From NCBI GenBank assembly GCA_013306675.1, contig JABLUY010000229.1:1-58170 (forward strand): a stretch of 58,170 nucleotides of DNA, read 5' to 3'. A program made the position numbers and the translations under genes. Source of the DNA: Thraustochytrium sp. TN22. Its lineage: Eukaryota > Sar > Bigyra > Thraustochytrida > Thraustochytriidae. Shown one piece after another: positions 9,383-55,322 of this stretch (position 1 is its first letter; every line of letters begins with the position of its first letter). The notes under the pieces were generated by a model. That model ran no database searches, was not told the origin of the DNA, and was given only the letters and a program-made list of their open reading frames with translations.

Positions 9383-12300
9383 TCACTCGTCCAGCATTGC
9401 TCCATTCTCGTTCTCGTCCTCATCCCGCATTGCGGCACTTGCGTTCTTCATGTCCTCCTCCTCCTCCTCATCGTCGTCGTCGTCTTCGCAGGCGTCGTCG
9501 TCGTCGCAAGCCGCGGCGTCAGCCATGACCAAATCGCCATCGTCGTCGTCGTCGTCGTCATCGTCGCCGTCCACACCAGGGGACGAGGCCTCCAGGTACG
9601 AATTTATGTCACGCAACTGGCGCGTCTCGTCCTGATACAGGCACTGGTACACGTCGCAGCAATGCTTGAACTTTGGCCCTTCCCAGTAGACACGGCGACA
9701 TCCCTCCTTCTTGCAGCGATAGAACATATCGACCGTGTCTAAGATCTCGTCCGGGACGGCCTCCACCGAGAGGTGGCCGTCGGCCTTGAGCTGGGCGATC
9801 TCGGCCCGAGTCACCAGTTCAAAGCCAGGTCCGTTGCACTTGATGCAGCGCGAGAGGAAGCCCTTCATGTCGGGCTTGAACGCAAAGCGCTCGCAGACCT
9901 CCTCGAACTGGCGGAAGCGGTTTGCCTGGTTGCGCAGCACGACAATGTCGTCGGCGCGATAGCGGTCCAACACCTTGCGGTCCGTGGTAAGGAAGACCCG
10001 GTGCTCGGCCCGCGCGGCCTCCAGCACCTTATCGAGCTCCTGATACCGCGAGCCACGCATGTTGCGCTTCTGGACCATGCGCTCCTCGACCGGGAGCGAC
10101 TGCAGACTGGGCGCAGCAGCCAGGGCGTCGTTGAGCTCCTGCACGCCCGGCACGTCCTGCGCGCGCACGCAGTCCATGCCGACGATGCGCATCATCTTGC
10201 CGAGCCGGCCCAGCATGTTGTCCACCAGGAACGTGGTGGTCACCTCCGAGCTGAGCCGCGGCGCCGGGGCAGCGCGCGCCTTGTTGGAGATGCCCGCCAC
10301 GCTGCCGCGCGCGCCGCACAGCCGAAGAAGCGTACCAGCGTCGGCGAAGTGAAGCAGGTGCCAGCGCGACCCCGCGCCCGTGTACACGGCGCCCTCAAGT
10401 TCCTCCACGGCGCTGTCACAGATCACCTCGAAGCGGGCCGACCCGCTCGCCACCGGTCCAAGCCCGCCCCCCGGCTGCGCAAAATGCTCCAGACACTCGG
10501 GCGCTGTAGCGCGCCGGATCAGCGCTTTGGACCACGCCGTGAGCCGCGCCTCCTTGACGCTCGAGTCGCCCCGCACAAGAACCAGCACGGGCGCCCACTG
10601 GTTCGCCTCGCGCCGCTGCATGTACGCCATGGATTTGAGTGTCTTGGCCACCGGGACGCCCACCTCCTTGGCCACGTCCTTGACCGAGGTCATGCTCGTA
10701 CGCATGCGTAGGAGCTGAATGCCGCCGTGCGGCAGCGGCGACGCTCCGCGCTCGGCAGGTTCTGGCGTCGAATTGAACGGGACCTGCAACGCGCTGCACC
10801 GCGCCTGGAGCTCCGCGCGCACCGCCTCGAAACACTCGGCGTCCTCCGGATCGATCTCATCTTGCCCGCCCTCGCCGCCCAGTGGCGCCAGCCCCTCACG
10901 GTGCAGGCGCATGTGGGCGCGACTTCCGCTGCGGTCCACGGTGACGAGGAAGTCAGCCGGGATGTGTCTTCCAAAGATGACATCTGCCAGGAGCGTCAAT
11001 GAGTAGGCATCCAGCGCGGCGTAGTGGAGCTGCGCAGGCCGCAGAGGCCGCGCCTCCCAGTCACTGAGCTGCTCCAGCTTGCAGAGCTCCTTGCCCAGCA
11101 CCTGTTCCACGACATGCTTGAGCCCACGTGTCACCTTTTTCTGGTACGTCGGGATCCAAACCGGCGTCGCCTGAGCCCCCTCGTCAACCTCCGCGCCGGG
11201 CGCGGCGCTCGTCGTCGTCGTCGTCGTCGTCAAAGAGGCCGGATCTTGCTCGAGCCGAACGTGCGCAAAGTCCAGTAACGTGTGCAGCTCACGCCAGCAC
11301 GTCTGCTTCGGGTACGACTTGGTAAGCACTTCGAGGTCGGAAGCAAAGCCAAAGGCAACCTTGACCACATCTGGTCGGCGAAAGAGGTGCTCGATATCCG
11401 CGCAGAGCGCGCGGCCGGCCTCGCAGGTGGCGCCCATGAGCCAAATGAGGTCGATGATGACGAGCTGCTGACGCGTGGCCAGCTGCAAGATACTGGCCAC
11501 GTTTGGGCCCTTGTCGAAGCTCGCCTTCCACTCGCCGTCCATGCCAACGATGTTATCCGGTCCCAGGGAGCGCAACCACGCGCTCGCGCGTCGCGCCTCC
11601 GCGTCCGCGCCGACAAACCAGAGAGCCTCCTCGAGTCGCTGTGGCAGCTGCAACTGCGTCGTTGCGCGCTCGCGTTCGCGCGCGTCCGCTGCCGCCTGAT
11701 CAATGAGCCCAAAGGCCTCCGCGTCGGAGGGTAGGTCCAGGCGTCGCGCCACGTAGCGCGCGACCCAGTGCTGACCGCGCTGTACAAGCTGCTCGACGAC
11801 CGCGCCCGTAAGGCGCGGATCGCGATACCGTTCAAGGCGGAAGAGCACCTCGGCGAGCTTGTCCTTTTCCAAAGAGGTCTTGAGTGCCGAGCGCCGGTAT
11901 GCTTGCACGAGCTCGGGGAACTCCCCCTCTAGCCGGTACTCCTTCATGCACGCGTGCGCCTTCCACATGTTCGGTGGGTCCATGCCGAGCGCCGTCCGAA
12001 TGTAGTGGCGCGCCAGCTCCCGAGTCGGGTCCGCCGCGACGAGCTTGCTCATATGCGAGTACCAATGCTGCTCTACGCCGCGGCGCACGAGCTCGGGCAG
12101 GTCTACGGCCCAGCTCGGATCGCCCACTAGCCCAAAGCCGACGGCCAGCTCCGTGATTTCCTTGATGCAGAATGCCTGCTCCTTTTGCCACACAGGTCTC
12201 TTCATCTCCAGGCGCGCGGCCAGGATACGGTAGAAGCGGCGCACCGAGGCGGTCGCCATGGCCGCGCCCGTGGCCGTGCTCACGTGCACGCGGAAAACCT

Positions 12301-12883
12301 GCATGATGCGCATCACCGAGACCGCGCTGAGCATATCCCGCGCCCTGCGCTCGTCACGCGCCTCGTACGCCGCCATGCGCTCGCGCAAGAGCGCCTCGCA
12401 TAGCGCCAGCGCGCGCACGCTAGCCATGTCGTCCGCGGTCGTCGACCCTGTCAACGCTGTCTTCGTCGTGGACGTCTGCGTCTGCGTCTGCGTCTGCTGC
12501 ACGTCCTGCGTTGCTACGGAGAGCGCGTCGATGCACAAGAACAGCAGGTCAGCGAACTCGCGCCGCGCCGCGAGCTCCTCGAAGAGCACCACGAGCTTCA
12601 GCCCCGGCAGCTTCGCAAAGCTCGCCGCCAGCACGTCCTTGCGTGCCTTGAACTCGCGGGACGCCTCCTTCTTGGACGGCGTCACGCTTGCCCCCTCCGC
12701 CGCCGCGTTGCTGCCCTCCAGCTCCTCGCGTCGCGCGCCCTGAAGCGCGCGCAGCACACGCAGCGCCGCGTCGCGCCCATCGGCGTCCGCGTCCCGCGCC
12801 GCATCCAGCACCGCCAGCGCCTCGGCGACGGCGCTCACGTCCGTGGGCTCGCGCTCCCGCGCCTGCGCCCGCCCGCCCGCCAT
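9383..12883 (-). CDS. EXD3/mut-7-like 3'-5' exonuclease with YbaK and Mut7-C domains (1166 aa)
   Basis: The ATG at 12883 is chosen; the frame extends slightly upstream only from a GTG. Residues 1-~430 are helical and TPR-like, as in EXD3/mut-7. A DEDDy exonuclease covers ~430-640: exoI motif GMDGEWK with the D-x-E pair, a middle aspartate in FASDLEVL, and the last motif YAALDAYSL. At ~731-870 there is a YbaK/ProX-type aminoacyl-tRNA deacylase-like domain (TSVKDVAKEVGVPVAKTLKS, later GLGPVASG and YTGAGSRWHLL). At ~882-1105 comes a Mut7-C PIN-like RNase domain (FLVDNMLGRLGKMMRI, FLTTDRKVLDRY) with a CxxC zinc ribbon. The tail is poly-D/E. Activity as an RNA exonuclease is inferred from the conserved catalytic residues. 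Confidence 0.9.
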   Translation of the reverse strand: MAGGRAQAREREPTDVSAVAEALAVLDAARDADADGRDAALRVLRALQGARREELEGSNAAAEGASVTPSKKEASREFKARKDVLAASFAKLPGLKLVVLFEELAARREFADLLFLCIDALSVATQDVQQTQTQTQTSTTKTALTGSTTADDMASVRALALCEALLRERMAAYEARDERRARDMLSAVSVMRIMQVFRVHVSTATGAAMATASVRRFYRILAARLEMKRPVWQKEQAFCIKEITELAVGFGLVGDPSWAVDLPELVRRGVEQHWYSHMSKLVAADPTRELARHYIRTALGMDPPNMWKAHACMKEYRLEGEFPELVQAYRRSALKTSLEKDKLAEVLFRLERYRDPRLTGAVVEQLVQRGQHWVARYVARRLDLPSDAEAFGLIDQAAADARERERATTQLQLPQRLEEALWFVGADAEARRASAWLRSLGPDNIVGMDGEWKASFDKGPNVASILQLATRQQLVIIDLIWLMGATCEAGRALCADIEHLFRRPDVVKVAFGFASDLEVLTKSYPKQTCWRELHTLLDFAHVRLEQDPASLTTTTTTTSAAPGAEVDEGAQATPVWIPTYQKKVTRGLKHVVEQVLGKELCKLEQLSDWEARPLRPAQLHYAALDAYSLTLLADVIFGRHIPADFLVTVDRSGSRAHMRLHREGLAPLGGEGGQDEIDPEDAECFEAVRAELQARCSALQVPFNSTPEPAERGASPLPHGGIQLLRMRTSMTSVKDVAKEVGVPVAKTLKSMAYMQRREANQWAPVLVLVRGDSSVKEARLTAWSKALIRRATAPECLEHFAQPGGGLGPVASGSARFEVICDSAVEELEGAVYTGAGSRWHLLHFADAGTLLRLCGARGSVAGISNKARAAPAPRLSSEVTTTFLVDNMLGRLGKMMRIVGMDCVRAQDVPGVQELNDALAAAPSLQSLPVEERMVQKRNMRGSRYQELDKVLEAARAEHRVFLTTDRKVLDRYRADDIVVLRNQANRFRQFEEVCERFAFKPDMKGFLSRCIKCNGPGFELVTRAEIAQLKADGHLSVEAVPDEILDTVDMFYRCKKEGCRRVYWEGPKFKHCCDVYQCLYQDETRQLRDINSYLEASSPGVDGDDDDDDDDDGDLVMADAAACDDDDACEDDDDDEEEEEDMKNASAAMRDEDENENGAMLDE

Positions 12884-13251
12884 CCTGCCGAGCGCGCCGC
12901 GCCGCGCGCCACGCGCCTCGAGCCCGAGCCTCGCCACCGAGCCTCGGCGCGACGGGGTCTGCGCCGCCGCGCCGCCTGCTTCGATCCGTGCCCGTGCCCA
13001 GCGCGTTCTTGCTGTCAGCCAGCGCAGGGTACGAGTGCCTGGGCATCAACCAAGCAAGGCCAAGCGAGGCCAAGCGAGGCCAAGCGAGAGCAGGTCCTGC
13101 GTACTTGCACTCCAGGTGGGGAGCGCATCTGCTTTTAGGCACACGTACATTTTATAGGCGGGGAAGGTCGTGCAGAGAGATGCGCAGAGGTTCTTCTTGG
13201 GGAAAGGCTGCGACGTGAACGGGAAAGTGGTTGAGGAGAGAGTGGCTCATC

Positions 13252-21329: not shown

Positions 21330-22121
21330 CTTGGCTTACCTCGCTCGCTCGCTCGCTCGCTTGCTTGCCCGCTCGCTTGCTCTAGCTAGTTGGCCACGAC
21401 GACTGCTCCTGCTTGCTGCCGCTGCTGCTGCTACACGGCCGCAGCGAGCACGCGCGCCGCCACCCAGGCTCTGCAGAGCCGCGTCGACGTCAGCGCCGGC
21501 CTCGGCGCCGCGACAAGCTATGACTCGCGAGCCTGAGCGGAGCCTGAGAGCTGAGGCGCCAGACATACACACACACACACACACTCCGCTGGCCTGGCCT
21601 GCACCTCGTGGCTGGCTGGCCGCCGCTCCTGCCGGTGTGTCCAGGCAAATAATTAGGGCAAGCGAAGAAGAACCCTGCGCGCCGCGCGCGTGGACTCCCG
21701 CGGCGGTCTCCGCGCAGATGTCGGTTGGGTGAGGGTAACTCCGTCAGCGCACTTCGCCGCACGATGTACAGGGAACCAGCACAAGCGTAACTGCGCATCG
21801 CGCCCAGGGGAATGGACACAGGCGTCCCCTCGCGTTCCCGGCGGCGGATGGCCAGGTGCGGTGCGCGGCCCTGGGAATGCGAACCCTGGAGGATCATGTT
21901 GGGCCGCGGCATCCCGCGCGCGGGATGCTCGCGCGCGCGGGCCCTCTCTATCTCTAGCAACAGGCTGAGGGAGACGCAGAAGCAGGGCCGACGCTGGTGG
22001 TTCGAGGCGGCGCGCCCGCGCGCGTGCGCGCGAGGCGGCGGGCCAGGCTCGGTCTGCATCGTTCAGTCGCTCGGTCGCTCGGTCTCTGGCTGGCCCCGTG
22101 CGGCGCGACGACTTCGGCACG
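21330..22121. other. Divergent intergenic region with (CGCT)n and (CA)n repeats
   Basis: This probably holds the promoters of two flagellar genes, RSPH3 and the EF-hand/WD protein, transcribed away from each other. Tetranucleotide CGCT/TGCT repeats lie at 21340-21385 and a (CA)n run at about 21566-21584. No coding sequence is supported. Confidence 0.55.
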
Positions 22122-25100
22122 ATGGACGTCATGATGCGGCTGCCGCTGTCGTCGCTGGACGTCCTGCGGAGTAAGTTCATGTCGAGTGGGAACGGGAATG
22201 GCCTCTTGCTGGCGGAATTTGTGGACGCCATGCTGCACTACCTGCCGCGGCAGGCCACCGAGGAGGAGAATATTCAGCTCGTCATGGAGCTCGTGGACCT
22301 GTACCGGCAAGTCGACGTCAACGGAGACTGCTTCATGTCGTGGGACGAGTTCACCTCGCACTGCATCGAGGCCGGCATGCTGGCGACGCGCAAGGCCGAG
22401 GTGAAGGCGCTCTCGGTAAACTTCCGGCCAAGTGTGGACTTCGTGGACCCGCTCTCGCACCGCGTCATCCTGGACGTCCTGCGCCTGGAGAACCTTAACG
22501 CGCTGTTGGTCGTGGAGGCCAACGCGACGATGATCAAGGTAGTCAACCTGCGCACCTACAAGTTGGACCGCGTGCTGCAGCTCCGCAATGAGACGAACCG
22601 TTCGACCAGCGGCCCACGCAGCGAGGAGGCCTTGGCGCCCATCATTGGCGTCGCCTTTGCGCACGACCTCCAGGTGCTCGTCGTCTCTTGCGCCGACACT
22701 TCCATTTCATTCTACAGCTGGGACGACTTTCGGCCTCTCGGACGCACCACAGCGCGGTCCATCCGCAAGCTGACTTATGCGAGCAACTGCGCGCTGTACA
22801 CCACGGACGACACGGGTGTCGTCGCGATGTGGCAGCTGCGCATCAAGCACCCGCACGGCGCGCCGGCGCAGTGCGTGTGCATCCCGCATGGGCGGCTCGT
22901 GGGCCACAAGAGCATCGTGTCGGCCTTTGCGGAGGTTCCACGGTACGGCGTCTTTGTCACGGGTGGCATGGACTCGCAGATCATCCTGTGGGACCTCGAG
23001 ACGAACCGTCGCCGGGGCAACCTCTCGCGCCACCGTCGCGCCGTGTGCCATCTCGAGTACTCCAAGTCGACCGATCTTTTGCTCAGCGCGGGCTACGAGC
23101 ACGAGATCTACGGCTGGGACGTGTACAACAAGCAGATTGTGCTGGAGCTCATCGGCCATCACGCGCCGTGTATCGGCGTGCAGCTCACATACCTGCACGC
23201 CGAGGATCTCGAGGAGCACGCAGTAAGCTGCGACGCCTCGGGCGTGCTCAAGCTGTGGAAGTTGGGCGGGTCAACCAATACAGAAGTTGCTGCGTGCCAA
23301 ACCTTTGCAGCTGATCCTGACCAGGGCCTGTACAAACCGCGCTTCCTCGTGAGCTGCGGCCCGCGCAAAGTCTTGGCTGCCAGTCGCGAGCTGCGCCTCT
23401 ACGAGGCCGTCTCCACCTATGTGCAGGACTCCCTGCCCTTCGTGGCGCTCTTCAACAAGGTGCTCGACCGATTCTACGTGGCACTCGGCAAGCGCATTCA
23501 GGTCTGGTGCGCCATCACCTGCGAGGTGCTGGACGAGTGGTGCCACATGTCGGACAGCGAGATCACCTGCATGTGCTTCGATGACCGCGAGCGCAAGGTG
23601 CTCCTGGGCAACTTCAACGGCCACGTCATCGTGCTCAACGCGCTCAACGGTGCCATCATGAAGTCCGCACACCTATCCGAGATCGTGCCTTCGCCCGCTA
23701 TCCAGGCGCACTTTGGCGCGACATCGCAGACGAGCGCGCCGCCGGATCGCGCCGCGGAGCGCGCCAGCTTGGCCGTCGTCGGAATTCACTACAACAAGGC
23801 CGACAAGTGCCTCATCGCGGTCAGCGCCAAGTCCATCTACGTGTTCGACGAGGACGAGATCGAGGAGAAGGTGGACGGCGTCATCATCCCGCACTTTCGC
23901 GTCGCCTTCGATGTGCACGAGTACCAGGTTACCTCGAGCGCCTACAGCTACCAGCTCTCGCTCATCGCCACCGGGTCGGCGGATAAGAGTATCCGCATCT
24001 GGGACTTTCAACACCTGCGCCTCGAGGGCGAGTGCATCGGCCATACGGGCCAGGTCACGGCCATGGCATTTGCAGAGCCGCATGCGCTTCTCGTCAGCGC
24101 CGATGACGACGGGAATCTCGCGCTTTGGACCGTACGGCCCTCCACGCGGCCCTATATGCGCCTGGCCACCGTCCTGTGCCGTTCGCCGCGCGAGCGCGCG
24201 CCCGAGGGGGAGCTCACCTCCATCTTCAACAGCCGCGCGCGAGCCGCCACGCCGGAGCCTGACGCACCACAAGAGGCGGGCGCCACGCGCCTTCGCGCTG
24301 ACTCCGTGGAGATCCTGGTCGACACTCTGCCATCCCCAGCAGCAGCAGCAGCAGCTGCTGCTGCAGCAGCAGCCGGCAGCAAGGGCCTCTACGAGGATGA
24401 CGAGACTGATCCGGTCTCGGAGTCCGCCCCCTCGGGCGCCTCGCGCATCAAGAACATCAGTGGCAAGCGTTTTGCGCACCCAGACTCGCCCGCGCACAAG
24501 GCCGGGTCCTTTAGGTACCTGTCGCGGCGCGCTACGGTTGGGTCCTCCAAGAATCTCCCCGTTGTCGGGCCTGGCCCGGACCAACAGGAGGTGGTGCCCG
24601 TGAAGTGCATTGAGATCATTGACAACGGCAGCCTCCTTTTGTATACAGGCGACCGGCGTGGCGACGTCAAGGAGTGGAACCTGGGGCTTTGCATCAAGGA
24701 CCTCGACTTGGAGCCAGTCGACCAGTCGCGCCAGCCACCCAACCTGGAGGGCTACAATGCCTCACGCCGCTTGGAGTTGAGCTACCGGTACCTGTACGAG
24801 GACTTGGACGCAATCCTGGACATGGACGACCTCGAAGACGCGGTGGGTACCGGCCCGCTCGAGGAGAAGCGCCGCCAGCTGCTGCAGGAGCGCAAGGAGC
24901 ACAAGCGTAAACAAGACCGCATGCGCCAAAAGCTGCTTCGCATCCGCAACAACCACCACAACAGTGCTGCGGCCAAGGTCAACGCGCGTCTTCCAGTCTT
25001 GCGCATGTTCACGGCGCACGGCGAGGATCTCAACTCGGTGCAGATCATCGCGGACCCGCCAGCCGTGCTCACCAGCTCCACCGATGGCAATGTACGCATC

Positions 25101-27650
25101 TGGTCCCCGAATGGCAAGCGCATTGGAAACCTGACCATGAGCGAGGCCGAGGTCGCCGGCATCCAGCGCGGCTTCATTTTGCCGACGCGGTACACCTTCG
25201 AGCTCGACGTGCACATCAAGCTGCAGCAGCGCTACAATGAGGCCGCCGGGATTTTGCGAAGCGTTCGCCGCCAGTTTACGCTGCCGCGCCTCATCTCGCG
25301 TCAGAGCATCTCTACCACTGTTCCGCGTGACGCGGTCGTGGTCCCTGGCTTCGAGCCAAGACCAGAAAAGTTCACCGTTGACCTCTTGCGTCTCGGCAAC
25401 ACGCGCGTGGCCAAGGCCCTTGCGCACCTGCTCACGTCCGGCGTGGCGCCCCGTGCCGATTTTGAGCTCGCCGCCCGGACCTCAGAGACCGAGGACAGCA
25501 GCGACACGGACTCAATCTCCACGCCGTCGCTGAGCTTCGCCAGCCCCAAGCTGAAGAGCCAGGGCCCTGAGTTGACCGAGGTGCGGCGGGACGAAGGCGC
25601 CAAGGTGAAGAAGGACCACCATCAGACGCAGCGACGCAACGACGACGACGACGACTACCACGACGACGATCAGGGCAAGGGCGAAGGCAAAGGCAAAGGC
25701 AAAGGCAATGAGGAGGAGGAGGATCAGGGGGGGGTGAAGACCTATGATGACGACAAAGACGACGACAAAGACGACAAAGACGACGACGAGACGAAGGAGC
25801 GCGGCGAGAGAGGCGGCAACGAGGCCGAGACGCGGGTTCGACTTCCGACGGTCTCCAAGGGCACGGAGAAACCGAGCCACTTCTCCCCGCTGCGCAACAC
25901 GTATCGGTGCTACGCCACGGAAGAGCAGCGAAGGATGGTCTCGCAGGCCTCCGCACAAGGCCGCTTCCGCGATGCCAAGGTGAACACGACTCCTTCCCCG
26001 CTCATGCAGGCCCTCCTTGACGAACGCGAGGAAGAGGAGCGCGTGAAGCGCAAGCGTAGGCAGAAGGTGCGTAGGCTCACGCAGCAAGCAGCCAGGCAGC
26101 GGGGCCGGGCGCAGGAAGAGCAGCAGATGGCGGAGCAGGCGAACCTCGTACCCCGCATGCAGCGCTGCGTGTCGCTGCCAGAGCTCGAGACCTCAAAGCT
26201 TGGGGAGAGTGCCGAGACGGCGGCCTCTGTTTTTCCGCGCCGCGTATCCGTCATGGATCGGCCTCCGCGGCACGTAACTCAGCTGCCGCGGCAGAGCACG
26301 CACAGCCGACGCAGCGCCGCCTTCTTGGACGAATTGCAGGCCGCCATTGAGGTGGTGGCCAACCTGGAGGGCGATGAGGCGTGTGACGAACAGGTCAGGG
26401 TCCGCCGCGGAAGTGGAAGTAGCGCAGCGTCAAGCTCGAGCTCGAGCTCGAGCTCAAGCACAAGCTCAAGCTCGATTACAAACGACGACCGAGGGCTCGC
26501 CAGCGTTGTGGAGGGTGGCGCGGAGGACGCCGATGCGGAGGACGTGGCGACTTGTCTTGAAAAGGAGCACGGCGACGAGCCTGGCCCCTTGCTGGACATC
26601 GTCTACGTGGGAGAGGCGGAGGAGAACGGGGAGGGCGCCGGCATGGAGGAATCGGACACGCATGCGTCGACGTTCATGGGGCGGCGCGCCAGCAAGCGCG
26701 CGAGTCGGCGTGAGTCGTCGGTGTCAACGCTGCTGAGCGCCGCAAGCTTGGGCGCAGAGAGCGCCGTGTCGCTGCCCACGTACCAGCGGCGCACGTTGGA
26801 CCGCGTCAGCTTCCTCATGGGCGAGCAGGAGGGCGAGCGGCTGCGCGAGGAGGCCGTGGAGGAGGCAGTCATGGCGCAGCGCAGCGCGCCGCAGCTCTCG
26901 CAGCAGCGGAGGCGCACGCTGCGGAGCTCAGTCTCCGGGCCGGTAGGCAGCAATGTGCGGGCGACGGCCTCGCGCGGGAGCACCATCTCCGAAGCGACGC
27001 GCAAGAGCTTGCAGCGGCGGAAGTCCGCAGCCGCCATGCCGCGGCCCGCGACGAGGACGGCTCCCAACATCGGCGTCTACTCGAAGCGCGACATTCTCAA
27101 CCTCAAGATTATCTTCGACCAGATGGACGCGGACGGCTCAGGAATTGTGGAGCTGGAAGAGCTCATGGACAACGCCAGTCGGCTCAACACGAGTCCAGAC
27201 CAGCTCGCCTCCATGTTCTCCTCGCTCGACAGCGACCGCAGTGGCACTGTGACCTTTACAGAAATGCTGCGCCTCTTCTTCACAGGCGCCAGTCTCGAGG
27301 ATCTCGCTGAGATGACTGCCTTTATCGACGCCACCTCGAACTCGGCCGTCGCACCTGCCAAGCCGCGCATGTCACCGGCTGAGGAGGCCGAGTTACGCCA
27401 ACTCTTCCGTCTCTATGACGCGGACTCAGACGGTATGCTCTCCCTCGTCGAGCTCTTTGAGGCGCTCAACAAGCGCGAGTACAAGCCCCGCGACGAGTTC
27501 GGCTCTGATGACGACCTCGTCTTTTCTTTTGCCGACCTCGAGCACATCACCACCCGTTTCCACGTATCCATGCATCAAGATCTCTCCGAGAACGACTTCG
27601 TCCAGCTCATGTTCGACTTCCAGCACATTGACATTAGCCCTGTCAAGTGA
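22122..27650 (+). CDS. EF-hand / WD40 / EF-hand protein, WDR49/CFAP337-like (1842 aa)
   Basis: The ATG at 22122 is chosen; the frame extends only 8 codons upstream from a GTG. The N-terminus has an EF-hand pair with a canonical loop (DVNGDCFMSWDEF, ~64-76). WD40 repeats run from ~110 to ~710, e.g. GMDSQIILWDLETN, ATGSADKSIRIWDFQHL and SADDDGNLALWTV, and resume around 820-1010 (YTGDRRGDVKEWNL, TSSTDGNVRIWSP). A linker of poly-A, poly-D, GKGKGKG and poly-S follows (~730-750, 1165-1240, 1425-1455). The C-terminus has EF loops DADGSGIVELEE (~1668), DSDRSGTVTFTE (~1704) and DADSDGMLSLVE (~1767). EF-hand plus WD repeats defines the WDR49/WDR64/CFAP337 group of axonemal proteins. The poly-serine and C-terminal EF extension make it longer than those I know. 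A calcium-regulated flagellar role is inferred. Confidence 0.88.
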   Translation: MDVMMRLPLSSLDVLRSKFMSSGNGNGLLLAEFVDAMLHYLPRQATEEENIQLVMELVDLYRQVDVNGDCFMSWDEFTSHCIEAGMLATRKAEVKALSVNFRPSVDFVDPLSHRVILDVLRLENLNALLVVEANATMIKVVNLRTYKLDRVLQLRNETNRSTSGPRSEEALAPIIGVAFAHDLQVLVVSCADTSISFYSWDDFRPLGRTTARSIRKLTYASNCALYTTDDTGVVAMWQLRIKHPHGAPAQCVCIPHGRLVGHKSIVSAFAEVPRYGVFVTGGMDSQIILWDLETNRRRGNLSRHRRAVCHLEYSKSTDLLLSAGYEHEIYGWDVYNKQIVLELIGHHAPCIGVQLTYLHAEDLEEHAVSCDASGVLKLWKLGGSTNTEVAACQTFAADPDQGLYKPRFLVSCGPRKVLAASRELRLYEAVSTYVQDSLPFVALFNKVLDRFYVALGKRIQVWCAITCEVLDEWCHMSDSEITCMCFDDRERKVLLGNFNGHVIVLNALNGAIMKSAHLSEIVPSPAIQAHFGATSQTSAPPDRAAERASLAVVGIHYNKADKCLIAVSAKSIYVFDEDEIEEKVDGVIIPHFRVAFDVHEYQVTSSAYSYQLSLIATGSADKSIRIWDFQHLRLEGECIGHTGQVTAMAFAEPHALLVSADDDGNLALWTVRPSTRPYMRLATVLCRSPRERAPEGELTSIFNSRARAATPEPDAPQEAGATRLRADSVEILVDTLPSPAAAAAAAAAAAAGSKGLYEDDETDPVSESAPSGASRIKNISGKRFAHPDSPAHKAGSFRYLSRRATVGSSKNLPVVGPGPDQQEVVPVKCIEIIDNGSLLLYTGDRRGDVKEWNLGLCIKDLDLEPVDQSRQPPNLEGYNASRRLELSYRYLYEDLDAILDMDDLEDAVGTGPLEEKRRQLLQERKEHKRKQDRMRQKLLRIRNNHHNSAAAKVNARLPVLRMFTAHGEDLNSVQIIADPPAVLTSSTDGNVRIWSPNGKRIGNLTMSEAEVAGIQRGFILPTRYTFELDVHIKLQQRYNEAAGILRSVRRQFTLPRLISRQSISTTVPRDAVVVPGFEPRPEKFTVDLLRLGNTRVAKALAHLLTSGVAPRADFELAARTSETEDSSDTDSISTPSLSFASPKLKSQGPELTEVRRDEGAKVKKDHHQTQRRNDDDDDYHDDDQGKGEGKGKGKGNEEEEDQGGVKTYDDDKDDDKDDKDDDETKERGERGGNEAETRVRLPTVSKGTEKPSHFSPLRNTYRCYATEEQRRMVSQASAQGRFRDAKVNTTPSPLMQALLDEREEEERVKRKRRQKVRRLTQQAARQRGRAQEEQQMAEQANLVPRMQRCVSLPELETSKLGESAETAASVFPRRVSVMDRPPRHVTQLPRQSTHSRRSAAFLDELQAAIEVVANLEGDEACDEQVRVRRGSGSSAASSSSSSSSSSTSSSSITNDDRGLASVVEGGAEDADAEDVATCLEKEHGDEPGPLLDIVYVGEAEENGEGAGMEESDTHASTFMGRRASKRASRRESSVSTLLSAASLGAESAVSLPTYQRRTLDRVSFLMGEQEGERLREEAVEEAVMAQRSAPQLSQQRRRTLRSSVSGPVGSNVRATASRGSTISEATRKSLQRRKSAAAMPRPATRTAPNIGVYSKRDILNLKIIFDQMDADGSGIVELEELMDNASRLNTSPDQLASMFSSLDSDRSGTVTFTEMLRLFFTGASLEDLAEMTAFIDATSNSAVAPAKPRMSPAEEAELRQLFRLYDADSDGMLSLVELFEALNKREYKPRDEFGSDDDLVFSFADLEHITTRFHVSMHQDLSENDFVQLMFDFQHIDISPVK

Positions 27651-27841: not shown

Positions 27842-30310
27842 CTAACAAATCGAACAATGCTTAGGCCTATTGGCTTTGTGTGCGGTCTCGAGGGCTTCGC
27901 GGTGACCGGCCAGATTTTGTTGCGCGAATCGCGTGCTCGGATGCTCTGGTCCGAAGGCTTCCTTGTAGATCTCGAGCGCCTCCTCGTAGAGTGGGAGCGC
28001 CTCGGCGTAGCGGCCCTGCGCAGCGTGCAAGCTGGCGATCGCGTCGAGCGTGCTGGCCACTGAGGCGTGCCGGTCCCCGAGGGCTTCCTTCTCGATATCG
28101 AGCGCCTCCTCGTAGAGCGGGAGTGCCTCGGCGTAGCGGCCCTGATCAGCGTGCAAGTTGGCGATTGCGTAAAGCGTGGAGGCCACTGAGGCGTGCCGGT
28201 CCCCGAGGGCTTCCTTCTCAATCTCGAGCGCCTCCTCGTAGAGCGGGAGCGCCTCGGCGTAGCGGCCCTGCTGGTAGTGTATATTGGCGATCGCGTAAAG
28301 CGTGGTGGCCAGTGAGGCATGCCGATCCCCGTGGGCTTCCTTCTCGATCTCGAGCGCCTCCTCGTAGAGCGGGAGCGCCTCGGCGTACCGGTCCTGCTGG
28401 TAGTGTATATTGGCGATCGCGTAGAGCGTGGTGGCCACTGTGGCGTTCCGGTCCCCGAGGGCTTCCTTCTTGATCTCGAGCGCCTCCTCGTAGAGCGGGA
28501 GCGCCTCGGCGTAGCGGCCCTGCGCAGCGTGCAAGCTGGCGATCGCGTAAAGCGTGCTGGCCACTGAGGCGTGCCGGTTCCCGAGGGCTTCCTTCTCGAT
28601 CTCGAGCGCCTTCTCATAGAGCGGGAGCGCCTCGGCGTAGCGGCCCTGGTCAGCGTGCAATTCGGCGATCGCGTAAAGCGTGCTGGCCACTGAGGCGTGC
28701 CGGTCCCCGAGGGCTTCCTTCTTGATCTCGAGCGCCTCCTCGTAGAGCGGAAGCGCCTCGGCGTAGCGACCCTGCGCAGCGTGCAAGCTGGCGATCGCGT
28801 CGAGCGTGGTGGCCACTGAGGCGTGCCGGTCCCCGGGGGCTTCCTTCTCGATCTCGAGCGCCTCCTCGTAGAGTGGGAGCGCCTCGGCGTAGCGGCCCTG
28901 TTCAGCGTGCACCAGGGCAATCGCGTGCAGCGTGACGGCCACAGAGGCGTGCCGGTCCCCGAGGGCTTCCTTGGTGATCTCGAGCGCCTCCTCGTAGAGC
29001 GTGAGCGCCTCGGCGTAGCGGTCCTGCTCGTCGTGCACCAGGGCAATCGCGTGCAGCGTGGCGGCCACTTCGGCGTGCCGGTCCCCGAGGGCTTCCTTGG
29101 TGATTTCGAGCGCCTCCTCGTAGAGCGTGAGCGCCTCGGTGTAGCGGCCCTGGTCCAAGTGCAAGTTCGCGATCTGGCGGAGCGCTGTCCCCAAATCAGC
29201 CGGCTCCACGCCGCCGTCGTCTCGCCTCATTTCGTTGATAATGCCCATCCCCATTTCGAGGAGCCAGGCGCGCTGGCGGCCCTGGATGGCCATGTTAACC
29301 TCGGTATATCCACCGTCGAGGTGGTTGGCCACCGCCTTGTCGATCATGGCCTTGTCCTCGGGCTTCCAGCACTGGGCCTTGCGCGCGTCCATCTCGCGCG
29401 CCATGACGACCGCTATTTGGTCGGAGCCCTCGTCCACGTAATTGGTACCCTCGAGCAACTGGTCAAAGAGGGCTTTATCCTGGCCTGGCGCGTAGACGAC
29501 CTCGAGCGGCACGCGGGCGCGGATCGCGCCGTAGAACTCCCAGACGCACCAGGCACGCTTGAGGGGCGCGGGCTCGTCCCAGCGGTCAAAGAAGACGAGG
29601 GTCCCGCGGGTGAACTGCGCGATGGCGAAGTGGAGGCCGTGCGTCAGGAATCGATTGCGCGCGTCGACGACCTTCTGGGGGAGATCTTGGTCGGGCTTGG
29701 TGAGGAGCGGCTGGTTGGCGCAGAAGAGGTCGAGCCAGACGAACTGCTCGTGCTCGGGCACGTCGCTGAACTTGGCCCGGAGCGCGCCGACGAGGTCCGC
29801 GAAGCTGCAGCGGCGCGCCTGGCTGACGAAGTGGCCATGGAAGGGCTCGCCGATGTCGCTCGTTTCGGCGATGGTGCTGATGTAGAACTGGTTTGTGCGG
29901 AGGGGCAACGTGGCGGGCAGCACCACGTGCTCGGCGATGTCCTCGGTGGACCATTCCTCGCGCGGCTTGGGGCGGGCGTCGTCGCCCTCCTTGAAGCGGA
30001 CACTGTCGTCCACGTACGGCACGCGGCCGAGGATGGTGGTGCCGTCCTCGGCGCGGGAGAGGAGCGCGATCGTGGCGCCCTCCTTGACTTGTTCGCTGAT
30101 GTCGCGCGTCGCGACGAAGAGCTGGACTCCCGGCGCGAGCGACTCGTCCAGCACGCGTGCAAGCACGCGCTCGAGCAAGCGCATGCTGACGCTGCGGTAG
30201 TTGATGATCTTGCGCTCCTGCTCGAGGTAGCCGGCGGTGCGACGCTTCTCGAGGCTGCGGCGCAGGCTGTGGCGCAGGCTGCGGCCCACGCTGGGGGCGG
30301 CGTCCGACAT
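27842..30310 (-). CDS. HET/TIR-like N-terminal domain + ten 42-residue TPRs + CaaX box (822 aa)
   Basis: The ATG at 30310 starts the protein; upstream only a GTG exists. Residues ~30-330 form an alpha/beta domain with two hallmarks: FVWLDLFCANQ (~190), like the WIDALCINQ motif of HET domains, and LKRAWCVWEFYGAI (~256), like the L-x-R-x-W-x-x-E motif. HET domains are related to TIR domains and act in fungal incompatibility and cell death. Residues ~387-806 are ten TPRs of exactly 42 residues, consensus GRYAEALPLYEEALEI then GDRHASVASTL, kinesin-light-chain/nephrocystin type. The DNA repeat (126 bp) is strikingly uniform. The last four residues, CSIC, fit a CaaX farnesylation signal. Function unknown; a membrane-tethered signalling or incompatibility sensor is inference. 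Confidence 0.85.
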   Translation of the reverse strand: MSDAAPSVGRSLRHSLRRSLEKRRTAGYLEQERKIINYRSVSMRLLERVLARVLDESLAPGVQLFVATRDISEQVKEGATIALLSRAEDGTTILGRVPYVDDSVRFKEGDDARPKPREEWSTEDIAEHVVLPATLPLRTNQFYISTIAETSDIGEPFHGHFVSQARRCSFADLVGALRAKFSDVPEHEQFVWLDLFCANQPLLTKPDQDLPQKVVDARNRFLTHGLHFAIAQFTRGTLVFFDRWDEPAPLKRAWCVWEFYGAIRARVPLEVVYAPGQDKALFDQLLEGTNYVDEGSDQIAVVMAREMDARKAQCWKPEDKAMIDKAVANHLDGGYTEVNMAIQGRQRAWLLEMGMGIINEMRRDDGGVEPADLGTALRQIANLHLDQGRYTEALTLYEEALEITKEALGDRHAEVAATLHAIALVHDEQDRYAEALTLYEEALEITKEALGDRHASVAVTLHAIALVHAEQGRYAEALPLYEEALEIEKEAPGDRHASVATTLDAIASLHAAQGRYAEALPLYEEALEIKKEALGDRHASVASTLYAIAELHADQGRYAEALPLYEKALEIEKEALGNRHASVASTLYAIASLHAAQGRYAEALPLYEEALEIKKEALGDRNATVATTLYAIANIHYQQDRYAEALPLYEEALEIEKEAHGDRHASLATTLYAIANIHYQQGRYAEALPLYEEALEIEKEALGDRHASVASTLYAIANLHADQGRYAEALPLYEEALDIEKEALGDRHASVASTLDAIASLHAAQGRYAEALPLYEEALEIYKEAFGPEHPSTRFAQQNLAGHREALETAHKANRPKHCSIC
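27900..29160 (-). repeat. 126-bp coding tandem repeat (ten units)
   Basis: These are the TPR-coding units of the preceding gene. Internal units differ by few bases, for example in codons for E/K at EI(E/K)KEA and for SLHAAQ/NLHADQ/NIHYQQ at the end of the unit. The mosaic of a few alternating variants suggests recent unequal exchange or gene conversion within the array. Confidence 0.85.
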
Positions 30311-30519: not shown

Positions 30520-30573
30520 GTCACGGTCACGGTCACGGTCACGGTCACGGTCACTGTCACGGTCACGGTCACG
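30520..30573. repeat. (GTCACG)n hexamer array
   Basis: About nine GTCACG hexamers, one with a CACTGT variant, lie between the HET/TIR-TPR gene and the helicase relic. They are noncoding as far as can be seen. Confidence 0.85.
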
Positions 30574-30599
30574 GCGGCCGCCAGAGGCCCGGGAGGAAG

Positions 30600-36452: not shown

Positions 36453-37318
36453 CGCGCGCCAGAGCCCAAAGTGGCCCAACGCCTCTTTTTCTGTAGTCTC
36501 ACTGTCAGTGCGGTGACTGGGCCATCGCCTCCGTCACCGCGACGGTCGCCGCGGCCGTCCCAGGCGCACGAGACACGCCGGAGGTAACGTAGCTGCCATC
36601 TTTGTCGACGCCGTTGGTCTGTGGTGTGGCGCAGCAGCGCCCCAAATGGCCTCGGCTATTCGTTTGCTCTGCGCGGCCCTGAGCCTCCAGTACACGCGAG
36701 GCAGGCAGCCGCCTCAATCATGCCGTCACCTCCGAGCCACTCCTCAACAACAAGCTCGCGGCCTGCAGCACCCAGCTCCAAGGGCTCGGAGAGCTCCCCA
36801 CGGCCCCGAACTGCCCTCGCTGTCATCTTTCGCAGCGCAGCTTCGGCCGCTTTGCCACAAGATCGAAGCGCCCTTGCTCGGATAGCGCGGGACGACCGAC
36901 TTGCAGCGAGACCCCTTCGTTGCCTTGTCAGGCCTTGCCTTGCCAGGCCTTGCCTTGCCAGGCCTTGCCTTGCCAGGCCTTGCCTTGCCAGGCCTTGCCT
37001 TCGCCTTGCCTTGCCTTCCTTGCCTTGCCTTGCCTGCGACGCCCTGCGACTCGGACTCGGGTGAAGGATGAGGATGAGGATGATGGACAGGTCGAGCTCG
37101 TACCAGCGCACCAGGTACCACGAGCACCGCCGCGACGCGCGCGAGGCATCCATCCTTCGACCTGCGCCGCGCGCGGCAAAGCCCCGAGGCCGGCGGCGCG
37201 GCGCGCGGGCGCGGCGGCGGCGGCGCGGCGGCGAGCGGCGGCGGCGGCGAGCGCGCGGGCCGCGGCGGCGGCGAGGCGGGCGGCGGCCTGCGCCTCGGGC
37301 GCGCCCGCCGACGGCGTG
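36453..37318. other. Divergent intergenic region with 15-bp array
   Basis: At 36930-37000 a 15-bp unit (AGGCCTTGCCTTGCC) is repeated about five times and then degenerates into (CCTTG)n to ~37040. From ~37190 the sequence is GCG/GGC-rich up to the AVL9 ATG. No independent gene is seen; the long open frame upstream of 37319 is low-complexity. Confidence 0.6.
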
Positions 37319-40300
37319 ATGGCGGCGACCGTGGACGAGGGCGAGGCGGCGGCGCAGCTGGAGGGCGGCGAGGCCGCGGCCGCGGCGGCCTGGGACTGCG
37401 AGCCGGAGGTGGCGGCCGCGCCGCCGGCGCGCAGGCTGCGGTCGTCGACGCTGTCGCCGAGATCCATGACGCCGCCACCGCCGGCGATGCGCGAGGCGGC
37501 GGAGCGCGCCGCGCGCAGGGAGGCGGGCGGCGAGGCGGCCGTCGTCATGGTGAGCATGGTGGAGTTCCACGTGCGCGAGGGCCCGTCCGTGCAGCAGGTG
37601 TTCCCGGAGGGCATGGACATCTTCGACCCGGACGCGAGCGCCATGCAGCGGCGCCGCGCGGCCGGGGCCGGCGGCGCCGGCGCCGGCATGCTTCGCTCGC
37701 GCAGCAAGTCGGACCTGGCAGGGCTCGCCTCGGTGCCGACCGCCTCGGCGGCACGCGCCGTGGTGGCGGCAGCCGCGGCGGCCGCGAGCGCGGCCGGCGG
37801 CGGCGGCGGCGGCGGCGGCGGGAACGCTGGTGCCAGCGGGATTTCGACGGCCGCATCTCCTGCGGGCCAGCGCCGCGCCGCAACACTCAAGCTAGAGCAA
37901 GACCTGCGGTCGCGCCTACCGTTCCTGGCGCTGCCAGACCGCGCGGACGCCCAGGACCACGGCTTCAGCTTCTTCGTGCTGCGGCAGGCGCCAGAGCTGG
38001 TCATGGGCGTCTCGTGTTTCCGCCAGGTGGAGTCGCACGAGGCGGTGCGCGGCAAGCACCAGCGCGCGCTGGTGGTGCTGTGCAATCTGCCTGTCTTCGA
38101 CTTCGTACGCCGGCTCATGGACGCGCATGCGGATGACATCCTGTGGGCGACGAGCGCCGACCTGCGGCTGGCGCGCATGCGCGCGCTCCACGTCAAGCTG
38201 ACGACCCTCGTGCGGCCTACGCTCTGCCGCGAGCCGGCATCCATCCAGGGCCCGACGTCGCTGACGCGGTCGCTGCGGGTGCTGGGCGGCGCGCGGCCTG
38301 CGCTCGTCATGCTCAAGTGCCTTTTGCTGGGCAACACGGGTGTCATGGTGACCGGGCCGGCCGCCGCGTTGGTGAGCCAGGTCGTGCTGAGCCTGTCGGG
38401 CGTGCTGCCGCGGCGCGGCGGCATGCTGGGGCCTTCAGTTGGCGAGGATATGCGGCACTCAGCCAAGTGCCGCGAGCTCGTGGAGCTCGCCATGGCCGTG
38501 CTGCCGCCGCGCCTGCAAGGTTTCGCGGCCAGCAAGCAGCGCCGCTTCAAGAGCAAGCTGCTGCTCATGCCGTACTGCAGCCTGCTGGAGATGGACGATC
38601 TCCGCGAGGTGTACACTCCGCGCGTGCAGGCCAAGTCGGAGCGTGCCTCCGAGCTCTCCGGCCGCTGCGGGTACCTGGCCGGGACCACCAACCCGGTCAT
38701 GGCATCCACAATCCGCAACGGCCTGGGCGACCTCATCGTAGAGCTGGACGATTCTGCGCTGGCGGCACTGGAGCTGCCAGCCGCGGCCCAGACCGACGCG
38801 GACGCGGAGGAGGCAGCAGCTGCAGCAGCCGCTGCGGCGGCGGCGGCGGCGGCGGCGGCCGAAGCGGCGGACGGCCAGAAACAGGGCGCGGGTGCCCTGC
38901 TTGGCATGCAGCTGGAGCGCTTCGGGTCGCGTGCCGCGCGCTTCATGCGCGAAAAGACGGACGAGATGGTGGCCAAACTGCAGCAGCTCAACACGAACGC
39001 CGTGAGGGTGACGCCACTGACGCCTGCCGGCCGACTGTCGGGCGACCTGGGCGGCAAGGACCGCGCCTTCGCGCGCCAAATTGACCGTATCCTCTTCGGG
39101 CGGCCCAAACCCGCGCGCAAGCCGCAGGCGCGCCCGCGCTCGCGCAGCCCGCGCAAGGGCGCCAAGCCGGCGGCGGCGACACCCGCTCCGAAGCGGTCGA
39201 GCGGTCCGTCCACCGCGTCCTTTTCGAGCTTCATGAGCTCTCTGGCGCAGCAATTCGGCGATGCGGACGCGCGCGAGCAAAAGCAAAAGCAGCAACAGCA
39301 ACAGCAGCAGGAGCAACAGCAGCAGCTGCTGCGACAGGGCGCCACACCGGACGCGCTCCTGGTGAACGACGCCAATCACCCGTACGCGCCGCTGGCCGGC
39401 GGCATGGGCGAGGGCGACGAGGACGAGCACACGGACGAGGAGGCCCGCGCGGCGGCCGAGGACGCCGCGGCGGACGCAGCTGTGGCGGCCGCGGTGGGCA
39501 GCAGCAGCGCAGCGCCCTCGACCGAGGATGGAAGCGATGCGGGCTGGAGCGAGGAGGACGTGGAGGCCAAGGTGCAGGAGCTCTTCGTGAAGTGGATGAA
39601 CAGCCTCTTCGCGGAGGTGAGCCACTTCATCGACCACGGCGCGCTGCCGAACGCACCGCCCGGGTCGATCCAGGGCCTGGCGCCCTCACACAGCCAGGAC
39701 TACCTGCGCGAGTGGGCGCGCCGCACGCAGACCACGCGCGAGAAGAACACCTGCAGCGAGATCATCCAATTCTCGAACGGTGACGAGTACCGTGGCGAGA
39801 TTTTGGTGAGCGATGCCGATGACGGCTTTGTCGACCTGAACCGCGACACGTCCGCTGCCTCTGTGCGCGTGGAGCGGCAGGGCCACGGCGTGTACCGGTG
39901 CGTGCGCGCGGGCTGGCGCTACGAGGGCGCTTGGGAGAATGATCGCCAGCACGGCAGCGGCGTGGTGACGCGCGAAGACTCCGGCTACATCTTTGATGGT
40001 TCCTGGGAGCACGGGCGCCGCAGTGGCCGTGGCACGTGCATTGTCAAGGGCAAGGGCCAGATCTCTGGTGTTTGGGACGCCGGCGTGCTGCGGCAGGGCA
40101 TCTTCTTCGACGAGGCGGGCAACAAGCTCGACGCCGTCTTCGACGATCAGGGCCGCGTCGAGGAGGGTCTCATCTCGGACGCCGCCGGCACCTCCTCGTA
40201 CAAGGGCCGCTTCGACCAGGACGGCCGCCCGCACGGCGTCGGCAACGCCTCCTACGCGGACGAGTCCAAGTACTCGGGCACCTTTGTGCACGGGCAGCGT

Positions 40301-40699
40301 CAAGGCCAGGGCGCCTGGTCGCAGTCACCGCTGCGTTGGTACGCCGGCGGCTGGAAGGCCGACGTCTTCCATGGCGACGGCATTTTGGCCTTTGCGCTGC
40401 CCGAGGAGAAGCGGCCGGTCGAGCTCGAGGCCGTCTGGACGGCCGGCCAGCTCACCCCGGCCCAGGCTTGCGTCGTGCGCGACGCTGTCTCCCGCGAGCC
40501 CGTCTACGCCGGCCGCCTCGCGGACTGGCCGCAGCTCGCGGCCATCCCGACACTGTCCCCGCCGGTCCTTGAGACCTCCTCGCGCTACGTCCCGGCTGAC
40601 TTTGCGTGCGACCTCGCGCCGCAGCCCAGCGCGCTCGGCAAGGTGCTCTTGGCGCTTCCTTCCGACGCCGAGTATGACACTGAAGAGGAGGAAGTCTGA
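37319..40699 (+). CDS. AVL9-family DENN protein with C-terminal MORN repeats (1126 aa)
   Basis: The start is the ATG at 37319 (gATGg). After an A/G-rich leader the longin-like start VMVSMVEFHVREGPSVQQVF lies at ~77-96. AVL9 signatures follow: LPFLALPDRADAQDHGFSFF (~200), VMGVSCFRQVES, and LLLMPYCSLLEMDDLREVY then GYLAGTTNPVMAS (~420-465). DENN proteins act as Rab GEFs or in late secretory transport; AVL9 is needed for exocytic traffic in yeast. Low-complexity poly-A and poly-Q linkers (~500-520, 655-672) precede about five MORN repeats at ~860-1010 (YEGAWENDRQHGSGVVTRED, FDGSWEHGRRSGRGT). MORN repeats bind lipid or cytoskeletal partners and are not part of fungal or human AVL9 as I know them. 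Confidence 0.88.
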   Translation: MAATVDEGEAAAQLEGGEAAAAAAWDCEPEVAAAPPARRLRSSTLSPRSMTPPPPAMREAAERAARREAGGEAAVVMVSMVEFHVREGPSVQQVFPEGMDIFDPDASAMQRRRAAGAGGAGAGMLRSRSKSDLAGLASVPTASAARAVVAAAAAAASAAGGGGGGGGGNAGASGISTAASPAGQRRAATLKLEQDLRSRLPFLALPDRADAQDHGFSFFVLRQAPELVMGVSCFRQVESHEAVRGKHQRALVVLCNLPVFDFVRRLMDAHADDILWATSADLRLARMRALHVKLTTLVRPTLCREPASIQGPTSLTRSLRVLGGARPALVMLKCLLLGNTGVMVTGPAAALVSQVVLSLSGVLPRRGGMLGPSVGEDMRHSAKCRELVELAMAVLPPRLQGFAASKQRRFKSKLLLMPYCSLLEMDDLREVYTPRVQAKSERASELSGRCGYLAGTTNPVMASTIRNGLGDLIVELDDSALAALELPAAAQTDADAEEAAAAAAAAAAAAAAAAEAADGQKQGAGALLGMQLERFGSRAARFMREKTDEMVAKLQQLNTNAVRVTPLTPAGRLSGDLGGKDRAFARQIDRILFGRPKPARKPQARPRSRSPRKGAKPAAATPAPKRSSGPSTASFSSFMSSLAQQFGDADAREQKQKQQQQQQQEQQQQLLRQGATPDALLVNDANHPYAPLAGGMGEGDEDEHTDEEARAAAEDAAADAAVAAAVGSSSAAPSTEDGSDAGWSEEDVEAKVQELFVKWMNSLFAEVSHFIDHGALPNAPPGSIQGLAPSHSQDYLREWARRTQTTREKNTCSEIIQFSNGDEYRGEILVSDADDGFVDLNRDTSAASVRVERQGHGVYRCVRAGWRYEGAWENDRQHGSGVVTREDSGYIFDGSWEHGRRSGRGTCIVKGKGQISGVWDAGVLRQGIFFDEAGNKLDAVFDDQGRVEEGLISDAAGTSSYKGRFDQDGRPHGVGNASYADESKYSGTFVHGQRQGQGAWSQSPLRWYAGGWKADVFHGDGILAFALPEEKRPVELEAVWTAGQLTPAQACVVRDAVSREPVYAGRLADWPQLAAIPTLSPPVLETSSRYVPADFACDLAPQPSALGKVLLALPSDAEYDTEEEEV

Positions 40700-54202: not shown

Positions 54203-54952
54203 TCACGCAGAGCCGGAGACGGACTTGAGAAACTTGTCGAGGTTCTGGCCCTGATACTTGAGAAAGGCGACCTCGTCCTTGCGCTTCTTCTCGGAGATGG
54301 CCTTGACCTCGGCCTCCCGCTTCTCCATAATCTCGACGCGGTTGCGGAGCTCGAGGACCTCGTTCTCGCGGCTCTTGCACTCCTCCTCGAGCTGCTTGAT
54401 CTCAGCCTCCATATCAGACATGCCCTGCTCGGCCTGGAGCTGCTTGCGAATGCCAAAGACGATGCTGCTGTCGTAGAGTGTCTTATAGGCGTCGACAGTC
54501 ATGCGCGCCTCGTCGCGCGTGCGTAGCAGCAGAAGACCGCGCTCCGGCTGGTTGAGCGTGACCTGGCGGATGATCTCGTCGAACGCCTGGCGGTAGAGGT
54601 CCTCGCGCACCGGGCAGATGCCGCTGTCGCGCGCCTGACGCTCGGCCAGCTTGCGATCGAGCTCCTCCTGCACCTGGATGACCTCGAGGCGCGTGGCGGG
54701 CTCCTTGGACGTGTACTGCATCCACTTGGACTGGTCCTTGAGCGTGAAGGTGCGCGGTGGCAGCACCGAGTTCACGATCTCATCCGTCTGCGCGCTGCCC
54801 GAGGTCGTCTTGGTCGACGCGCCCTGGCCGCCGCCGCCGTACTCCTTGCTCTCCGCCTCCGCCTCCGCCTCGTTGTTGCTGCGCGCCGGCGCGCTCACCA
54901 GCAGCGGCTCCTCCAGCCGCAGCAGCGACTCGGGCACTTCCGTGCTCGCCAT
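54203..54952 (-). CDS. DNALI1: Axonemal dynein light intermediate polypeptide (inner-arm p28)
   Basis: The 249-residue protein from the ATG at 54952 closely follows the p28/DNALI1 family (human 258 aa). Seen: EIVNSVLPPRTF (~57-68), LEVIQVQEELDRKLAERQAR (~88-107), then GICPVREDLYRQAFDEIIRQ (~110-129) and RGLLLLRTRDEARMTVDAYK (~138-157). A C-terminal coiled coil follows (~170-245). It binds single-headed inner-arm dynein heavy chains with actin or centrin. The ATG context is ggATGg. Divergent from the ankyrin gene by 370 bp. Confidence 0.96.
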   Translation of the reverse strand: MASTEVPESLLRLEEPLLVSAPARSNNEAEAEAESKEYGGGGQGASTKTTSGSAQTDEIVNSVLPPRTFTLKDQSKWMQYTSKEPATRLEVIQVQEELDRKLAERQARDSGICPVREDLYRQAFDEIIRQVTLNQPERGLLLLRTRDEARMTVDAYKTLYDSSIVFGIRKQLQAEQGMSDMEAEIKQLEEECKSRENEVLELRNRVEIMEKREAEVKAISEKKRKDEVAFLKYQGQNLDKFLKSVSGSA

Positions 54953-55322
54953 CCTGCTGGTCCTCGGCGCACCAGCTGCGCTCTCGCTCACTCGCTCGCT
55001 CGCGCGCTGGCTGGCTGACTGGCGGAGCACGGGCGCGCGGGGACCGGGGCCGCTCGCCGCGAGCGCTCGAAGACGGACTGCGTCGCGCGCCGGCGGCGCC
55101 GCCGGCATGCTGCGCGCGCGGCGCCGGCATGGCGAGCCAAAGCCGTTGAGCGCCCTAGGCCGCGGCAGCGGAAACGCTAGCACTTGTGACGCAGCAGACG
55201 CAGCAGACGCAGGCAGGCGGGCACGCAGGCAGGCAGGCAGGCAGGCAGGCGCGGCGCGGCGCGGCGCATAACCGGAGCGAGGCCGGGCGCGGCGGCGAGC
55301 GCGGCAGCGCGGCGTCGGCAGC
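54953..55322. promoter_or_regulatory. Divergent promoter region, DNALI1 / ankyrin gene
   Basis: This 370-bp gap must hold both leaders and core promoters. It contains GCGAG/CTCGCT repeats near 54985-55005 and a (GCAG)n run at ~55205-55250 close to the ankyrin ATG. No TATA-like box is evident. Confidence 0.45.

Follow-up and report, generated by a model that had tools for sequence, protein, structure and literature searches.

A large family of tetratricopeptide-repeat genes with a predicted TIR-type domain in Thraustochytrium sp. TN22 and its possible role as a sensor repertoire

The described systems closest to the gene studied here, 27842..30310 (-) on contig JABLUY010000229.1 of the thraustochytrid Thraustochytrium sp. 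TN22 (assembly GCA_013306675.1; positions 1 to 58,170, hereafter the window), are plant TNP (TIR-NBARC-TPR) proteins, fungal HET families and brown algal repeat receptors, for which excerpts of the cited studies are drawn on throughout. TNP and the window protein both carry tetratricopeptide repeats (TPRs) at the C-terminus and, at the N-terminus, a TIR-type module that is probable in the window protein; maize TNP kills cells via its TIR NADase site and P-loop (PMC9806590). TNP possesses a nucleotide-binding domain, however, whereas the window gene has none and its TIR fold comes from a model only; Marchantia, for example, has one TNP and N. benthamiana has four (PMC9806590), compared with about 98 places for the window family. 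Fungal HET and HET-NB-TPR proteins likewise belong to large families that carry a TIR-related module and have expanded within lineages: HET and TIR domains show remote similarity (PMC9153377, PMC10197012) and have in common a functionally important glutamate, and a cysteine adjoining the catalytic glutamate matters for 2',3'-cNMP synthesis (PMC9153377). The fungal HET-NB-TPR proteins have a nucleotide-binding domain (PMC9153377), whereas the window gene has neither a Pfam HET match nor a nucleoside triphosphatase (NTPase) domain, and the only HET match of its assembly belongs to another protein, one that carries MORN repeats. In brown algae, exon shuffling diversifies TPR and leucine-rich-repeat (LRR) receptors (PMC11378527), and their NB-ARC-TPR and LRR-ROCO proteins resemble the window protein as candidate repeat receptors of stramenopiles whose repeats are shuffled and diversified; in the excerpt of that study the repeats are shuffled, spliced exons, whereas the array here lies in one uninterrupted frame, and the window gene lacks an NB-ARC or ROCO domain.

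The window gene is given an even chance of being a member of a large, dispersed and partly recombining family of intracellular sensors, a sensor repertoire. Its coding frame is uninterrupted, with no intron seen, and contains FVWLDLFCANQ, LKRAWCVWEFYGAI (residues 250-263) and a terminal CSIC, all correctly read and placed in the initial annotation of this DNA. The ten near-identical TPRs reported there are 62-93% identical at the protein level, with Pfam TPR_12 matching at E 4.6e-117 from about residue 380 (25 of 43 matching families listed for the whole protein); they provide the C-terminal repeat array typical of NLR and TNP proteins, with a putative sensor role. Pfam also bears out the absence of a central NB-ARC or NACHT NTPase domain from the gene. 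The lipid anchor predicted from the CSIC end is rejected as a family feature, CaaX-like ends occurring in just 2 (the window copy and one other) of the 40 paralogues whose frame has both ends inside the locus. The SH3-like barrel, family expansion, mosaic copies and focused repeat variation described below had been overlooked.

At E <= 0.001, residues 1-375 find 115 matching stretches in the assembly that contains the window (37.9 Mb), a count that is a lower bound; they also match 33 distinct external proteins, which places the match well beyond chance. Merging pieces less than 500 bp apart on one strand leaves 98 places, spread over 75 contigs, and 78 of these places span 850 bp or more; the single-copy housekeeping gene that the initial annotation had named as the contrary outcome is not what the assembly holds. 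Loci L001-L050 were examined, and 44 open reading frames (ORFs) with a near-complete N-terminal region, as opposed to all 98 places, form the basis of the paralogue statistics. Median identity over 903 pairs is 49% in the N-terminal region and 39% in the remainder. For 12 close pairs, the best match at the DNA level spans the gene and 10-655 bp beyond the frame as delimited in the analysis (flanks in these loci extend up to about 1.5 kb), indicating that copying involves a unit about the size of the gene together with short flanks; the idea that copies share nothing but the gene is thus not quite borne out. Third-position identity was scanned along eight hand-picked pairs. In L002/L024, L004/L016 and L006/L016 it is 0.42-0.58 up to codon 180 and 0.80-1.00 from about codon 245 onwards, across the TPRs, dropping to 0.30 at the extreme end of L006/L016, and in L002/L003 it is 0.87-1.00 and then 0.58 over the final 60 codons. 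L003/L006 exhibits no break, and L007/L019, L015/L022 and L047/L050 exhibit no sharp break. The sharp breaks are most simply explained by sequence exchange among dispersed copies.

The array comprises 4-12 TPRs in 42 of the 44 ORFs, and its variation was assessed in repeat pairs at least 85% identical at the DNA level (166 pairs from 13 of the 44 ORFs). Canonical TPR positions 9, -1, 12, 31, 13 and 2 show the most amino-acid change, followed by 5. Positions 2, 5, 9, 12, 13, 33 and 34 are those that we take to line the TPR ligand groove, a list for which no source was found in the literature searched. For the groove set 2, 5, 9, 12 and 13 the ratio of non-synonymous to synonymous change (pN/pS) is 1.25 (bootstrap over arrays 1.00-1.56), compared with 0.58 (0.46-0.77) outside the set, and 21 of 100,000 random five-position sets reach the groove-set pN. 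The pooled ratio is 1.27 with positions 33 and 34 and 1.24 without them (1.25 when weighted). Variation is focused on the positions likely to face a ligand, which makes the array look like a variable sensor; a sensor layout is what the initial annotation had supposed. Several points weaken this test. The groove list was drawn up after variation in the window copy had been seen, and positions 33 and 34 were dropped from the set once found nearly invariable; these two listed positions hardly vary, and positions -1 and 31 vary yet are absent from the list. Codon bias lowers pS in this test, which has no control array outside the family, the repeat units of L073 and L074 being family-like. Fungal HET families are large and variable with a known allorecognition role in a small part only (PMC10197012), so that caution is due in reading incompatibility from copy number. 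L073 and L074 are frames composed of TPRs only and are either fragments or donor cassettes; the tail of L073 is nearly the same as those of L002 and L024.

A Pfam search with residues 1-375 of the window copy yields no family, even with E values as high as 10 admitted. One of the 44 paralogues reaches Pfam HET (PF06985), at E 0.081 amid other chance-level rows, and profile comparison with a HET-like set gives 20% over 23 columns; HET membership is rejected by both, and the HET-type motifs proposed in the initial annotation, FVWLDLFCANQ and LKRAWCVWEFYGAI, resemble HET by eye only. TIR assignment by sequence alone also failed: the family has no significant TIR profile match, ThsB_TIR appears once at E about 0.05, and profile-profile comparison gives 0.4-0.5% to a TIR profile of 15 of 20 extracted TIR_2 stretches (five were left out where the flanking extension crossed a stop). 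A fold search with residues 1-368 yielded a listing filled by SH3-like barrel matches, and the second half was then modelled alone; in this model the alpha/beta domain probably has a TIR-type fold, and no HET structure is named among the matches listed. Of the proposed HET/TIR-like domain, the TIR part thus survives as a probable modelled fold and the HET part falls on Pfam and profiles.

W192, D194, F196 and Q200 of FVWLDLFCANQ are invariant in 44 of 44 paralogues, as are R252, W254, C255, W257 and E258, the latter five also in external alignments; across the 44 copies 32 alignment columns are invariant, and those of the N-terminal region point to function. In the N-terminal basic stretch the consensus of the 44 paralogues is the pattern R-x-S-L-R. 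E258 lies within R252-A-W254-C255-V-W257-E258 on helix C of the model, the helix that matches TIR and that we take to be the location of the catalytic glutamate in TIRs, making E258 a candidate catalytic glutamate. C255 and E258 may parallel the cysteine-glutamate pair noted above.

For a sensor family, the TPR array would bind a variable ligand in its groove, and binding would free or cluster the divergent TIR-fold module adjoining the SH3-like barrel. By analogy with TIR-repeat proteins, this module would use E258 to cleave NAD+ or a related nucleotide and would thereby trigger a defence, cell-death or self/non-self response; the repertoire perhaps serves defence or self-recognition. Taken alone, catalysis by the N-terminal module appears rather doubtful. 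More tentative again is the wider proposal of a labyrinthulomycete with an NTPase-free repertoire of about a hundred TIR-fold/TPR genes, whose ligand grooves keep diversifying as arrays grow, genes convert one another and dispersed copies exchange sequence; it would be an intracellular system of immune or self/non-self recognition, running in parallel with NLRs and the HET families of fungi. Were this so, a unicellular stramenopile would possess a large and diversified set of TIR-type receptors lacking the NTPase switch by which NLRs are defined, and both the sufficiency of repeat-groove diversification plus a TIR-fold module for recognition and a third, protist branch of TIR and HET systems would become directly testable; labels such as 'kinesin light chain' and 'nephrocystin-3' in these organisms could also hide something else.

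It is unlikely that the family instead comprises non-enzymatic TPR scaffolds or adaptors of ordinary signalling, in which the TIR-like domain binds protein and groove diversity reflects many endogenous partners. TPRs are common as scaffolds, an SH3-like barrel adjoins the alpha/beta domain in the model, the enzymatic activity of the family is putative, and some TIRs lack the catalytic glutamate or detectable NAD+ hydrolysis (PMC9153377). The invariance of W254, C255, W257 and E258, however, points to either an active site or an interface that is strict, and mosaic copies and repeat variation are unusual in housekeeping adaptors.

Neutral or near-neutral expansion, in which arrays homogenise, copies convert each other, groove positions vary because constraint on them is weaker, and recognition is not the role of most copies, is less likely still. 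Broken copies are consistent with it: L009, L010 and L012 are each spread across three frames, L027 and L031 across several, and L026 and L028 have no in-frame TPR. The same applies to L072, a further copy with about 29 TPRs, 16 consecutive ones identical at the protein level, which reflects recent array growth or an assembly artefact, and to a groove pN/pS barely above 1. It is opposed by the 42 of 44 ORFs that are open through the N-terminal region and TPRs, by the 32 invariant columns, and by the median N-terminal omega of 0.66 (239 pairs with pS below 0.45), though codon bias inflates omega and makes its values hard to read; the maximum, 1.49, comes from a pair with very few changes. As a separate observation, the assembly's closest relatives to the window gene are found among the broken copies (L009, L010, L012; L026-L028, L031), being split over several frames.

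Six of the 33 external proteins are from Hondaea fermentalgiana, a thraustochytrid (Labyrinthulomycetes), and another, a fragment from Durusdinium trenchii, bears the label nephrocystin-3. A FastTree tree of 76 sequences, a kind of tree that mosaic genes blur, places five Hondaea proteins in one group nested among the copies of the window assembly with modest support at the joining nodes (0.75-0.78); 39 of the 44 copies sit in this Hondaea-containing part, the remaining five cluster with one another elsewhere, and a set of 22 environmental proteins lies apart. Fitting the peptide pattern are 11 stretches in viral contigs and 36 in prokaryotic genomes (one per species), with no confirmed relative in either set, and no paper on the family was found by title in the open-licence literature, which omits most subscription journals. 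In kinesin light chains a heptad coiled coil at the N-terminus binds the kinesin heavy chain. Kinesin-light-chain-like transport adaptors are very improbable here despite the 42-residue, KLC-type TPRs and the 'kinesin light chain' labels of five of the six Hondaea relatives, because those labels follow the TPRs, the N-terminal half is modelled as an SH3-like barrel and alpha/beta domain, and the family occupies about 98 divergent places.

Table 1. Features of the window gene and other genes of the window (window positions).
Feature	Position	Strand	Detail
Complete coding frame	27842..30310	-	822 aa, ATG at 30310, stop 27844-27842
N-terminal basic stretch, residues 1-32	30215..30310	-	Helix of low confidence in model
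SH3-like barrel, residues 61-116	29963..30130	-	Model only
TIR-like alpha/beta domain, about residues 153-345	29276..29854	-	Model only
FVWLDLFCANQ, residues 190-200	29711..29743	-	Sequence and paralogue alignment
RAWCVWE, residues 252-258	29537..29557	-	Sequence and paralogue alignment
Ten 42-aa TPRs, residues 371-790	27941..29200	-	Pfam and repeat comparison
CSIC, possible CaaX end, last four residues	27845..27856	-	Sequence
3'-5' exonuclease, aminoacyl-tRNA editing domain and Mut7-C RNase domain in one frame	9383-12937	-	
WD40 plus EF-hand protein	22098-27650	+	
Avl9 plus MORN protein	36920-40699	+	
Axonemal dynein light chain	54203-55396	-	

A CGGTCA-type simple hexanucleotide repeat lies at about 30520-30575 of the window, upstream of the gene and some 200 bp from its start codon. 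PADLOC gives no match, and neither does Rfam at the gathering threshold over the whole window. Elsewhere in the assembly, TIR_2 has 123 matches, 114 of them over the cut-off (e.g. L051-L054, L056-L071), some being tandem repeats of one unit, so that not every match is a gene. This set is a second expansion, separate from the TPR family; one checked protein has COR-A and TIR domains and is of ROCO type. These proteins share with the window family a genome and a TIR fold (for the window family in the model only), whereas their clear Pfam TIR_2 sequence is not profile-alignable to it. The assembly has 1 HET, 2 NB-ARC and 8 NACHT matches (7 NACHT over the cut-off), and the TIR_2, NB-ARC and NACHT counts suggest an organism with many TIR-type genes and few NTPases of the NLR kind. 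The sole Pfam HET match lies at L055:1273-2721 (+), joined to MORN repeats, and relatives with this HET and MORN layout occur in environmental data.
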